Assembly (NCBI RefSeq): GCF_900099935.1
Contig: NZ_FNEK01000055.1
Span: 1-34,693, forward strand
Direction: 5' to 3'
Origin: Aliiruegeria lutimaris
GTDB lineage: Bacteria; Pseudomonadota; Alphaproteobacteria; Rhodobacterales; Rhodobacteraceae
Length of the DNA stretch: 34,693 nucleotides
The notes under the pieces are model-generated. The model did not search any database. It saw only the letters and a program-made list of their open reading frames with translations, and had not been told where the DNA came from. Positions 10,785-22,233 of this stretch are shown here, in pieces. The position numbers and the translations under genes were made by a program. Numbering within the stretch: position 1 is the first letter of the stretch; every line of letters starts with the position of its first letter.

Positions 10785-10829
10785 TGGTGGCGCCGTTCGG
10801 GGGCGAACCGACGACCTCGTCATCGCGAA
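10785..10829 (-). repeat. Diverged copy of the tRNA-Ala 3' half (candidate attachment-site remnant)
   Basis: Read on the minus strand, these 45 bases match the 3' part of the intact tRNA-Ala at 22158-22202 at 40 positions, from the anticodon loop through the T-arm and acceptor strand to the encoded CCA. The five differences are one base in the anticodon-loop region, two in the T-loop, one at the base of the T-stem and one in the acceptor. The 5' half of a tRNA is absent; IS5 transposase sequence lies directly against it. A 3' tRNA fragment in the same orientation as an intact tRNA is the usual trace of site-specific integration into a tRNA gene. Confidence 0.7.
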
Positions 10830-11418
10830 TTCTGTCGGCATCGTAGCCCTTGGCGGCCAGCAGCACGATAGGCTCCGGAAGGTCATCGTCCATGACAAGA
10901 TCAAAGCCGAGATAGCTCGATGTCTGGCCGGACGTAATGGCACTTCGCATGGGTAGCCCTGCGGCATTCACCCGGAGATGGATCTTGGTTGTGAGGCCGT
11001 CCCAGGAACGGCCAAAACCCTGCCGTGGTGTCCCCCTTTAGCGCCCGCTGCCCCCACCGGTCGATTGCTGCGCAATCAACTGCCGGGCAGTGGATGATTG
11101 GCACCAACAACAGTGTTGCCGACCATTTGCATGGCGTCGGGAACGATCCGGCTCTCGTGCAGCCCCTCCAGGATCTGCTCCCAGAGACCGGCGAGCGTCC
11201 AGCGTCGGAACTGCCGATAGACACTCGACCGCTTGCCGGACTCTTGCGGCAAGTCCCGCCACGGCGCCCCCGTGCGGGCAATCCAGAAAAAAGCCATCAA
11301 GAACAAGGCGGTGGTTGGTGGGTTTGCGCCCGTTGGGGACACGGACTGTCAGGATGAACGGTTCAAGGAAGGCCCACTCCTCGCCCGACACCAGGTCTCG
11401 TGACAAGCTGGCCTCCAT
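10830..11418 (-). pseudogene. Decayed IS5-family transposase
   Basis: The N-terminus begins at 11418 with MEASLSRDLVSGEEWAFLEPF and carries GRKPTNHRLVLDGFF. The frame then shifts near 11288 to WIARTGAPWRDLPQ followed by YRQFRRWTLAGLWEQILEGL, which is the IS5 N-terminal block. After further shifts around 11040-11090, the catalytic region continues as GRSWDGLTTKIHLRVNAAGL and then VLLAAKGYDADRIRDD. Three frames are needed and the C-terminal third is missing, replaced by the tRNA-like fragment at 10785-10829. It cannot make an active transposase. No inverted repeats were recognised. It lies just inside the left edge of the proposed island. Confidence 0.85.
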
Positions 11419-11878
11419 CGCAGATACCAGCTTGAATCACGATCAGCGGGCGACGTGAATCCCTTTTGTCATCAGAGCCGGTGCTGACCCGAAGCGCTGC
11501 AGAAGATCGCCGGAACGGTCTACTGAGATATACCGGCCTCCTTACCGAAGTCTGGAGCCAAAGGCTTAATTGCCGCAGGGCTGGAATTCGATTGCGTGGC
11601 GGATCGCGAATAAGCAAATATGTATTGTCGCCATTGGATTTGTGCGGCGCAGTCACGCGACAGTATTGCGCGGAGATTCTTTCGCAATCGCTTTGCTCTT
11701 GGATGTCCGCGTGACCTGTCGCCGGGGGGCTACAAAGTGCCGAGGTGGGCGCAATCAATTCGCTACATTCCGAGTAGCTCCCTATGAAGCGATGTGTCGT
11801 TCGCGAACAGCAGATCATCCAGACTGGTGGCACGATTAGGTTCATCCGGCAACGGAAGTCAGAGGAGAGGATGTCTTC
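11419..11878. other. Intergenic region with two palindromes upstream of the oxidoreductase gene
   Basis: No convincing gene is present in these 460 bases; base composition is lower in GC than the neighbours. Two short palindromic sites stand out. AGCGCTGC at 11493-11500 repeats the motif found twice in the 14.8-15.0 kb promoter region, and GTTCGCGAAC at 11799-11808 is a perfect 10-bp CpG-centred palindrome. A GAGGAGAGG ribosome-binding site at 11862-11870 serves the next gene. Confidence 0.5.
11799..11808. promoter_or_regulatory. Perfect palindrome, candidate LacI-type operator
   Basis: GTTCGCGAAC is self-complementary and has the central CpG into which LacI-family hinge leucines intercalate. 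It lies 71 bases before the start of the 6PGDH-like gene. A LacI-type regulator is encoded in the same cluster. No -35/-10 pair was clear enough to report. Confidence 0.35.
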
Positions 11879-12751
11879 ATGAACAGAAAAGTCGGGATCG
11901 TTGGTGTCGGCGCTATGGGCGGCGCGATCGCAAGGCGGCTTCTGTCGCAGGGTTGGGAGGTGACGCTGTGGAACCTTGTTCCAGAGGATCTTGATGCCTT
12001 CGACGACATCCAGGGCGCGCGCCGGGCGAAAACACCGGCCGAAGCTGCCTCGGTGGGACGTGTCATCACCTCGGTGGCCAATGACCAGGCGGTGCGCGAC
12101 GTGACGACCGGCCCGGACGGCATTGCCGCGGGGTTGCCCGAGGGAGGAACACATATTTCCATGTCGACGGTCTCACCGGAAGTGGTCACCGAAATGGCCG
12201 CGGCTTCCGGGGCGACGTATTTCGTCTCGGCGCCGGTCTTCGGACGCCCGGTTGCGGCCGAGGACGGCAAGCTTTGGGTTGCCCTGTCCGGGCCTGAAGC
12301 GGGACGCGCTGTGGCAAAGGAAGTGCTGGCCGATGTCTCTCAATTGGTGAAGGAATTTGGTGACGCGCCCGAAGCCGCTGTACACGTCAAGATCGCAGGG
12401 AATTTCGTCATTGCCTCGGCCATCGAGGCTATGAGCGAGGCTTTCGACGTATTGAGCCGGTCGGGAACCGACCCGCGACTGTTCCACGAGATGATGAGCG
12501 ATTCGATCTTTGCCTCCGTTATCCACCAGAACTACGGGCGGATCATTCTCGATGAAGCCTTCGACCCACCGGGTTTCCGGCTCGCGCTTGGCGGCAAGGA
12601 TATCGGGCTGGCTCGTGATCTTGCGCAGCACGCTGGCACCTCGCTCCCCTTCGGCGACATTCTCGCGGCGCGCTTTGCCACGGCAATGGAGCAGGGCTAT
12701 GGCGACAAGGACTGGAACGCGATTTCCAAGTTTCGCGATCCGGTGGGCTGA
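11879..12751 (+). CDS. NAD(P)-dependent oxidoreductase, beta-hydroxyacid dehydrogenase/6PGDH-like family
   Basis: This 290-residue protein has an N-terminal Rossmann domain with GVGAMGG (9-15) and a C-terminal helical domain. MSTVSPE at 95-101 sits where the family's substrate-binding serine loop lies. The catalytic Lys is K171 in HVKIAGNF, where the canonical family has GxxxKxxNN; here the second Asn is Phe, as in imine-reductase-like members. FGRPVAAEDGKLWVALSGP is also typical of that subgroup. The substrate could be a hydroxyacid or an imine; neither can be fixed from sequence. The start follows a strong GAGGAGAGG. It stands alone on the plus strand, before a bidirectional terminator, as the first intact gene of the proposed island, and may act on an intermediate of the sugar pathway downstream. 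Confidence 0.9.
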   Translation: MNRKVGIVGVGAMGGAIARRLLSQGWEVTLWNLVPEDLDAFDDIQGARRAKTPAEAASVGRVITSVANDQAVRDVTTGPDGIAAGLPEGGTHISMSTVSPEVVTEMAAASGATYFVSAPVFGRPVAAEDGKLWVALSGPEAGRAVAKEVLADVSQLVKEFGDAPEAAVHVKIAGNFVIASAIEAMSEAFDVLSRSGTDPRLFHEMMSDSIFASVIHQNYGRIILDEAFDPPGFRLALGGKDIGLARDLAQHAGTSLPFGDILAARFATAMEQGYGDKDWNAISKFRDPVG

Positions 12752-12876
12752 CCGAAAGCTGCAGTGCAAGACAAGACGGTTGCCCTACGGGTTCAGTCTC
12801 GGGGCGGCAGGGCGGTCTCAAGGCCGTCCGCGCCGTCCGACGTAATATCCGGCGCGCCAGATCGCAAAAAAAACGG

Positions 12877-21034: not shown

Positions 21035-21877
21035 ATGCACCCTGCAATTGTCAAAGGAAACATCGCTGTTGTCACCGGCGGCGCTTCCGGGATCGGCCTC
21101 GCGGCAGCGGCCCGGCTCGCTGAACAAGGGTTGAAGGTCTGTATCGCGGATCTTCCGGGTGAAGCGCTCGACGTGGCGAAAGCGACTCTGATCGCATCCG
21201 GTGTTGCTGCCGGAGACGTGATGACGCTGGCAACAGATGTTGCCGACTTGGAGCAGTTACGTGCGCTGGAGGCGCGAGTTTCTTCGGAACTTGGCCCTGT
21301 TAATGTGCTTATGAACAATGCTGGCATGCAGCCTGGCAGCTCGATCTTCGATGCCGAGGACAACTGGCAACGCATCATCGACGTCAACATGTGGGGCGTC
21401 ATTCGCGGCTCGCAGGTATTTGCTCCCGGAATGATCGCCTCTGGTCTGCCGGGGTTGATCGTCAATACAGGATCCAAGCAGGGGATCACCACACCGCCAG
21501 GCGACCCCGCCTATAACGTCTCCAAGACGGGCGTGAAGGCTTTCACCGAAGCCCTGCAGCACGAATTGCGCAATCTCCCCGATTGCCGGGTCGAGGCACG
21601 GCTCTTCATCCCGGGCTTCGTATTCACGCCGCTCACTGCGCGTGGCCGGATTGAAAAGCCTGAGGGCGCGTGGACCCCGGAGCAGACCGTCAGCTTCCTG
21701 TTCGAGCGGATAGAGGCGGGAGATTTCTACATCCTCTGCCCGGACAATGAAGTCGACCGGCCCACAGATGAGAAGCGCATTGCCTGGGCCGCCGGCGACA
21801 TCACCGAGAATCGCCCCCCGCTGTCGCGCTGGCATCCTGATTTTGACGCGGCTTTCCAGAAGTGGCTGAAGTCGTGA
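21035..21877 (+). CDS. Short-chain dehydrogenase/reductase (classical SDR)
   Basis: This 280-residue NAD(P)-dependent oxidoreductase has the Rossmann motif TGGASGIG at 14-21, NNAG at 94-97, and the catalytic residues S147 (NTGSKQG), Y160 and K164 (YNVSK). All active-site residues are intact. ARLFIPGFVFTPLT is the usual substrate/cofactor loop, and the C-terminus with FYILCPDNEVDRP resembles SDRs of sugar and polyol catabolism clusters. AAGGAAGG at 21018-21025 directly abuts an ATG at 21026 but sits nine bases from the ATG at 21035, which is therefore preferred. The gene follows the LacI-type gene by 89 bases and is the last one before the tRNA, so it forms the right end of the proposed island. 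Substrate unknown. Confidence 0.93.
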   Translation: MHPAIVKGNIAVVTGGASGIGLAAAARLAEQGLKVCIADLPGEALDVAKATLIASGVAAGDVMTLATDVADLEQLRALEARVSSELGPVNVLMNNAGMQPGSSIFDAEDNWQRIIDVNMWGVIRGSQVFAPGMIASGLPGLIVNTGSKQGITTPPGDPAYNVSKTGVKAFTEALQHELRNLPDCRVEARLFIPGFVFTPLTARGRIEKPEGAWTPEQTVSFLFERIEAGDFYILCPDNEVDRPTDEKRIAWAAGDITENRPPLSRWHPDFDAAFQKWLKS

Positions 21878-21930
21878 GCGGCACCGGCGTAGACAACTGA
21901 TGGACTCTGATGATGTGACCGTCCTCCTTT

Positions 21931-21950
21931 GTGGGTCATGGTAGACCCAC
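21931..21950 (+). terminator. Hairpin downstream of the SDR gene
   Basis: GTGGGTC (21931-21937) pairs with GACCCAC (21944-21950) across a 6-base loop, 54 bases after the SDR stop. A second 7-bp hairpin, AACCCAG/CTGGGTT at 22095-22114, lies nearer the tRNA. Neither has a T-run, so function is uncertain. No gene is recognised in 21878-22157. Confidence 0.4.
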
Positions 21951-22157
21951 CTTGGCACATTGATGCCGTGGGGGACGGACAATCCCGAAGGAACGCTCGA
22001 TCCTTCGCGAATGCCACATGGAAATCGGTCTCAGACGCGAGAAGAAACGGTCAGCTTGTCGCGGGTGGACGCCGCCAAATTCCGTCCCCGTGCGAACCCA
22101 GTGCGATCTGGGTTGCAGTATGGCGCAGTGCAACCAGTTGTAACTTGTTAATTTTAA

Positions 22158-22233
22158 TGGTGGAGCCGATCGGGATCGAACCGACGACCTCGTCATTGCG
22201 AACGACGCGCTCTCCCAACTGAGCTACGGCCCC
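22158..22233 (-). tRNA. tRNA-Ala, anticodon CGC
   Basis: The minus strand folds into a full cloverleaf of 76 bases including an encoded CCA. The acceptor GGGGCCG pairs with CGGCTCC and contains the G3-U70 pair that identifies alanine tRNAs. The anticodon loop TTCGCAA gives CGC, reading GCG. The T-stem GTCGG pairs with CCGAT around TTCGATC. The first bases at 22227-22233 and the CCA at 22158-22160 define the ends. Its 3' 45 bases are duplicated with five changes at 10785-10829, which marks it as the likely integration site of a mobile island. Confidence 0.97.

Follow-up and report, generated by a model that had tools for sequence, protein, structure and literature searches.

A tRNA-Ala(CGC) locus of Aliiruegeria lutimaris as the probable relic of an integrative genomic island now occupied by a sugar-use cluster

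Introduction

Genomic islands that target tRNA genes, bounded at one end by a regenerated tRNA and at the other by a displaced 3' fragment, are well known and have been catalogued in Islander, as described in the available excerpts of that work (PMC4383910). A second described system that bears on the present locus is qatABCD (PMC13279940, PMC13329287), of which, according to the available excerpts of PMC13279940, QatB and QatC alone suffice against some phages, while QatB requires an N-terminal glycine. Here we describe a 34,693-bp stretch of DNA (the window), comprising the whole of contig C99 of the draft genome of Aliiruegeria lutimaris (5.8 Mb, 193 contigs), in which an intact tRNA-Ala(CGC) gene and a decayed copy of its 3' half bound 11.4 kb carrying a sugar-use cluster. 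An initial annotation of this DNA had proposed that a tyrosine-recombinase island sat at this site and that the entire 11.4 kb entered with it as one unit. Comparison with 8 congeners (G001-G008), 394 genomes of the family and 385 genomes of the class indicates that the first of these proposals stands, the locus bearing the attachment (att) core ends and the tRNA-side terminus of an island family found in relatives. This family carries an open reading frame (ORF) starting MGHIRLG (MGH) followed by a QatC-like gene. The stretch 10785-22202 is probably the shell of such an island, emptied of its own genes, with the sugar cluster filling the space.

Results

The window contains a single tRNA gene (n = 1), tRNA-Ala(CGC), located at 22158-22233 on the minus strand and called by both ARAGORN and Rfam. 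The same gene is adjoined by trxC in 8 of 8 congeners, consistent with an intact, regenerated integration target. The initial annotation had reported that 45 bases at 10785-10829 repeat the 3' end of this tRNA (22158-22202), an observation that is confirmed: the two segments are identical at 40 of 45 positions, lie in the same orientation (minus strand) and end at the encoded CCA. Runner-up ungapped matches in the window reach only 25/45 (plus strand) and 26/45 (minus strand), and the top score over 200 mononucleotide shuffles was 29, values that rule out a chance match. A search of the tRNA region against its own 5.8 Mb genome likewise retrieved the fragment, at an E value of 8.5e-11. The repeated portion of the tRNA, extending from the anticodon loop to the CCA, corresponds to the att core, and 10785-10829 to the displaced and decayed 3' half, an attR relic. 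Fragment and intact half differ by five changes, one of them at T-loop position 58, which we take to be an invariant A in tRNAs. The divergence had been read as a sign of either an old event or a foreign attachment site; a foreign working tRNA half is rejected as the source of the fragment, since at ≤3 mismatches its sequence occurs in 1 of the 394 family genomes, that of the window itself, and the other 393 lack it.

The DNA adjoining the tRNA on the island side (22043-22157) is identified as a relic of the island's tRNA-side end on the basis of alignment z-scores and a repeat at fixed offset. Two repeats, at 22101-22108 and 22090-22097, are positioned at +50 and +61 after the CCA and read GATCGCAC and GTTCGCAC on the minus strand, matching at 7 of 8 bases; the rule applied required two 8-base units, offset by 11 bases, to agree at 7 or more positions. 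In congeners G003, G006 and G007 the tRNA is followed directly by the same type of sequence with two repeats 11 bp apart, and a repeat at ~+45 to +52 after the CCA is present in 17 of 17 MGH-linked tRNA loci, whereas all 5 congeners without the island genes (G001, G002, G004, G005 and G008) are devoid of it. The 120-bp window end, scored against 1000 dinucleotide shuffles, aligns with the tRNA-Ala ends of G006 (z 7.4), G007 (z 8.7) and G003 (z 4.9), as compared with z 0.1-2.5 for the island-free congeners G001, G002, G004 and G005 and z 0.7 for the DNA outside the fragment. The same end type also adjoins tRNA-Thr(CGT) in G007 (z 6.1 to the window end) and, with another repeat sequence, Lys and Arg tRNAs elsewhere. 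The occurrence at tRNA-Thr(CGT) rules out the ~115 bp as native post-tRNA DNA and identifies it as island DNA. From their place and spacing, the repeats are putative integrase arm sites. G008 is intermediate, with a z of 3.7 to the window and a first 25 bp after tRNA-Ala that is AT-rich like island ends, and it lacks both repeat and MGH; it may hold a shorter relic of a like event.

An ORF starting MGHIRLG follows the repeat end in G003, G006 and G007; the G003 copy is broken, and the G007 contig ends within it. In G006 the inward order is MGH and a 616-aa QatC-like gene followed, on the other strand, by a tyrosine recombinase (PF00589; Int) and an HTH_17 protein (HTH; L038:10563-14696). None of these four proteins has a match in 20-kb stretches of G001, G002, G004, G005 and G008. 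MGH matches were obtained in 26 of the 394 family genomes, and a tRNA lies just upstream of MGH in 11 of 24 loci examined (28 returned), specifically Lys(TTT) in seven, Thr in two and Arg(TCT) in two. All 11 fall among the 13 examined loci at least 45% identical to G006 MGH; L139, one of the remaining two, combines the repeat with a tRNA-like 3' end and has no called tRNA, and the other (L149) has neither feature clearly. At class level 5 of 385 genomes match, with a tRNA in 3 of 5 loci examined. The four genes occur in this order in 8 of 13 fetched islands and as a partial set in the other five. As further observations, several alphaproteobacterial genera have islands with the conserved four-gene unit at the tRNA-side end (L198-L205); in L199 (G392) the island end follows a tRNA-like 3' end (...GTTCGAGCGCACCA), not called by ARAGORN, just upstream of MGH; and one phage record resembles Int at 27%. 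We found no description of this family in the openly licensed literature, among the matches listed.

The opposite ends of four of these islands correspond with the fragment in the window. In G006 a far-end copy of 45 bp, of the same extent as the window fragment, is located 18.6 kb from the tRNA and matches its own tRNA at 45 of 45 positions. Three other genera have copies matching at 43, 45 and 44 of 45 positions at distances of 17.2, 13.8 and 14.2 kb, respectively, all starting at the anticodon loop. A P4-type integrase (PF13356 and PF00589) is present at the far end in 4 of 4 islands bounded by a copy. The genes between the ends differ, the G006 island carrying a sugar importer different from that of the window, an FGGY kinase and a dehydrogenase, and other islands either a CRISPR-associated protein, an N6/N4 methylase or an enzyme resembling MmeI; thus, islands of this family take varied cargo. 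In L201 (G042), the CRISPR-associated protein (PF08798) is accompanied by ORFs with repeated peptide patterns resembling a read-through CRISPR array.

The relation of the MGH/QatC-like pair to known defence proteins was also investigated. The QatC-like protein of the relatives matches PADLOC (E 9e-60) and the QatC structure 9vlk in PDB (E 1e-36), and its score against the NCBIfam QatC model, 219.9 bits, is under the cut-off of 280. In G006 the gene has neither QatA nor QatD alongside, its neighbours being Int and HTH. Gly2 of MGH is invariant in 20 of 20 aligned proteins, and the predicted model is mostly helical (pLDDT 88). No model matched MGH in Pfam, NCBIfam or PADLOC, and comparisons with PADLOC models, PDB sequences and PDB folds gave no match to QatB; identification of MGH as QatB is therefore unsupported in these resources, the fold library, which extends to April 2026, possibly lacking the QatB entries. 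As no model, PDB sequence or PDB fold ties MGH to QatB, a defence role for the pair is put forward just as a lead.

Both joins of the sugar cluster to the island ends are marked by insertion sequence (IS) remnants. In an addition to the picture given by the initial annotation, the inner edge of the tRNA fragment abuts a truncated transposase gene of an IS5-family element (ISPme2-like; 10825-11474, minus strand; 71-77% identity to three annotated copies), from which ~234 bp of the 3' part is missing on the fragment side. The final fragment bases, GCGAAT, can be read as tRNA or as IS5, a 6-base overlap, and the inner edge may therefore be an integrase edge or a deletion join. At the other join a 66-bp remnant (21916-21981) resembles DNA that flanks IS110-family transposase genes on their start side, with 80-91% matches among 20 records listed, many of them annotated IS110. 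Searches of 10526-10829 and 11475-11878 found no plasmid matches. The IS5 junction and its 6-base match speak for an alternative in which integration never occurred, a stray tRNA piece having been caught by IS5 and the 115 bp being native DNA. That account is highly improbable, as sequence of the 115-bp type also borders tRNA-Thr in G007 and, in a form with a different repeat, Lys and Arg tRNAs, and as the fragment ends equal the att-core ends of G006; the second tRNA target by itself already largely refutes it.

Between these remnants lies the sugar-use cluster (11807-21878), a unit which recurs elsewhere. Pfam scans bore out the gene content previously given, a ribose-type ABC importer, a LacI regulator and dehydrogenase, epimerase and racemase genes. 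The cluster begins with a 3-hydroxyisobutyrate-dehydrogenase-like gene (11879-12751, plus strand; PF03446, PF14833), followed on the minus strand by an aldo/keto reductase (12954-14009; PF00248) and a member of the Asp/Glu/hydantoin racemase family (14045-14782; PF01177). The remaining genes are on the plus strand: a ribose-type ABC permease (15006-16154; PF02653), a periplasmic sugar-binding protein (16267-17208; PF13407), an ABC ATPase with two ABC domains (17275-18777; PF00005), an NAD-dependent epimerase/dehydratase (18835-19743; PF01370), a LacI-family regulator (19875-20945; PF00356) and a short-chain dehydrogenase (21026-21877; PF00106). GC content is 0.588 in the cluster and 0.622 and 0.610 in the flanks, a mild difference that was dropped as evidence of foreign origin, being too small.

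The cluster is present in just one of the 8 congeners, G006, where a contig of 10,375 bp contains it and little else (G006:C274; 79% nucleotide identity), homology with the window spanning 11807-14702 and 15125-21878; the last stretch is also present on a second contig (G006:C70; 82%). As a separate observation, the left edge of G006:C274 (L090:1-432) matches 132 plasmid records, many of them rhizobial, the best matches being at ~150-311 and falling in unannotated stretches; this edge looks like a repeat. The core order (aldo/keto reductase, racemase, permease, binding protein, ATPase, epimerase, LacI) occurs whole or in large part in nine distinct loci elsewhere (ten rows, one contig being counted twice), namely Actibacterium sp. 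MT2.3-13A, Ciceribacter (two), a Rhizobiales isolate, Rhizobium, a Rhodobacterales metagenome-assembled genome (MAG), an Arenimonas-labelled MAG, G084 and G006. The 11879-12751 gene is common, at ≥55%, only to G006 among these. Parts of the cluster are also carried on rhizobial plasmids, none covering 80% of the query, and of 80 loci fetched through the epimerase, seven include the importer portion; in the remaining 73, largely from Mesorhizobium and its relatives, a similar epimerase occurs without it.

None of the nine loci adjoins tRNA-Ala(CGC) within the 10-21 kb available per locus. Nor does the cluster adjoin the tRNA in any of the 8 congeners (G007 shows 252 bp past the tRNA, and its genome is without a copy of the cluster), and it is therefore not vertically inherited at this place; vertical conservation at the locus, which had been named as contradicting an island origin, is thus excluded, the only congener copy being that on the separate G006 contig. 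These data bear directly on the proposal that the whole 11.4 kb, sugar cluster included, was the cargo of one island that later lost its integrase. The two att halves do bound exactly this stretch, its length comes close to those of the four bounded relatives (13.8-18.6 kb), and the sugar importer and FGGY kinase of the G006 island at the same tRNA indicate that catabolic cargo occurs in the family. Against this, the cluster core occurs in all nine loci away from tRNA-Ala(CGC), G006 has its tRNA island and its cluster on different contigs, and the IS5 and IS110 remnants part the cluster from both att halves. G006 carries the tRNA fragment without the cluster at that site, a combination cited in advance as damaging to the proposal; it counts against entry as one unit and leaves the att part untouched. 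Entry as one unit is thus unlikely, and later arrival of the cluster, rather than presence as original cargo, is favoured because IS remnants edge it.

On the tRNA side, globin adjoins trxC in 7 of 8 congeners, as in the window. In G006 the contig breaks off, on the trxC side, in IS-like sequence, and globin and amylase, found on the trxC side in the window, lie in inverted order outside the far-end copy (L131, L038; G006:C64). The left flank is a GntR, TRAP transporter and ADH block (5904-10532, plus strand) that is not native to this tRNA. It is kept in 6 of 8 congeners at other sites (~5925/5988-10525, 77-81% identity; L084-L089), extending further left in one piece in four of them, as far as 3242 in G007. 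It was not seen adjoining tRNA-Ala in any of the six and is ~566 kb away on the same contig in G004. In the 6 kb after ADH there is no nucleotide similarity among the six congeners or to the window, as if the block moves as a cassette. Because the block wanders, the outer side of the fragment is unusable as an empty site. The synteny check proposed for relatives, a direct join of trxC/tRNA-Ala to the sequence left of 10785, gave a negative result in the congeners, and the sole similarity in the empty-site comparison was 20 bp between the outer side of the G006 copy and G005.

Such rearrangement raises an alternative in which two events were involved, an unrelated attR relic and the outer TRAP/ADH block having been set beside the locus by rearrangement. 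The wandering of the block and the inversion at the G006 locus both accord with this. In contrast, one fragment and one tRNA in correct orientation at near family-typical spacing need no second event, and we consider the two-event alternative less likely again than entry as one unit.

Discussion

The alterations at this locus are best accommodated by an emptied island of the MGH/QatC-like family, in which the sequence of events most likely began with integrase insertion, a step that rests on the relatives, the later steps being reconstructed from the remains. A P4-type tyrosine integrase, present in relatives and absent here, would have recombined the att site of the island with the 3' half of tRNA-Ala(CGC), the core of integration running from the anticodon loop to the CCA. 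The island would have furnished a new 3' half, so that the tRNA stays whole, and the old half would have been displaced to the far end, where it decayed. The layout of the family, from the tRNA inward, consists of arm-like repeats at ~+50/+61, MGH and the QatC-like gene, with the second tyrosine recombinase and HTH on the other strand, variable cargo and the integrase at the far end beyond. In the window, all beyond ~115 bp would have been lost on the tRNA side, leaving an IS110 relic near the join, and on the far side the integrase end would have been lost and the truncated IS5 fused to the fragment. IS-linked deletions probably removed both the integrase end and the MGH-QatC end, and the gap would then have come to be occupied by the sugar cluster, a unit that also occurs at sites other than this tRNA.

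The window thus has the intact tRNA and displaced 3' direct repeat of a tRNA-targeted island, the repeat spaced by 11 bp at ~+50 after the CCA (7/8 at +50) and an att core starting at the anticodon loop, its inner edge ambiguous through the IS5 match. It has no tyrosine integrase gene among its 13 island ORFs (Pfam), no match to Int or HTH of G006 and no trace of MGH or the QatC-like gene. Lack of an integrase and of the family genes defines it as a relic, not a working island or family member.

Several results weigh against this interpretation. Besides the missing genes within the window, the other contigs of the draft genome give no match to MGH or Int. The criterion for the repeat (7 of 8 bases, step 11) was fixed after the data had been viewed, and the window scores 7, not 8. 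Island-free G005 attains a z of 2.5, a value reached in 16 of 1000 shuffles, and 9 of 10 Lys, Arg and Thr(TGT) ends compared, which have the other repeat sequence, fail to align with the window end (z -0.4 to 1.9), one Arg end aligning at z 6.4. Of the 11 islands examined (G006 and ten further), only 4 yielded a far-end copy, two of the seven without one being at short contig ends and the others in 20-kb stretches, and no copy was found in ~55 kb of G003. The inner edge of the fragment coincides with bases that match IS5, TTCGC(A), and the exact position of this edge may therefore be coincidental. Finally, none of the 8 congeners (252 bp only in G007) has tRNA-Ala joined to the DNA that lies left of 10785, and there is no empty site for comparison. 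Even so, an emptied island of the MGH/QatC-like family remains the reading we judge probable.

Taken together, the data also permit a broader proposal, which we advance tentatively as one possibility. Alphaproteobacterial tRNA islands may share a fixed tRNA-side end (arm repeats, a QatB-like/QatC-like pair that is possibly a two-gene anti-phage system, and a second recombinase with HTH). This end would join tRNAs for four amino acids (Ala, Thr, Lys and Arg), its repeats having more than one sequence but a constant offset. Cargo would be swapped freely between defence (CRISPR-associated and restriction genes) and sugar use. The window would then be an emptied defence island reused as a metabolic landing pad, its own integrase having perhaps used a TTCGCA pseudo-site within IS5.

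These results indicate that an island can be recognisable after loss of all its genes, through a terminal repeat signature beside the tRNA together with a core having family-typical ends. They point to an alphaproteobacterial island family whose integration end carries a QatC-like gene, related to a known defence protein, and through this family the question of whether QatBC-type pairs work alone in nature becomes directly testable.

Two observations concern the window beyond these features. Its first 329 bases (1-329) recur, at 99-100%, close to the ends of another three contigs (C174, C122 and C52), and the contig therefore probably stops in a mobile repeat. Toward its right end a weak match to an rve domain, scoring under the Pfam cut-off, neighbours a cpn60/GroEL gene (30221-30799 and 31405-33042).

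Comparison with described systems places the locus as follows. As in qatABCD, in so far as the available excerpts of PMC13279940 and PMC13329287 describe it, the islands of the relatives pair a QatC-like protein with an upstream protein having glycine in second position; unlike qatABCD, the G006 pair is without QatA and QatD, MGH matches no QatB, the QatC score is below cut-off and the window has none of these genes. Relative to the tRNA islands described in the available excerpts of PMC4383910 (Islander), the window differs in being without an integrase, in its probably replaced cargo and in its rearranged outer flank, and agrees in having a regenerated tRNA at one end and a displaced 3' fragment at the other. 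Unlike the G006, G042, G236 and G335 islands, the window has lost all family genes, yet it shares with them the 45-bp core from anticodon loop to CCA and the repeats 11 bp apart at ~+50.

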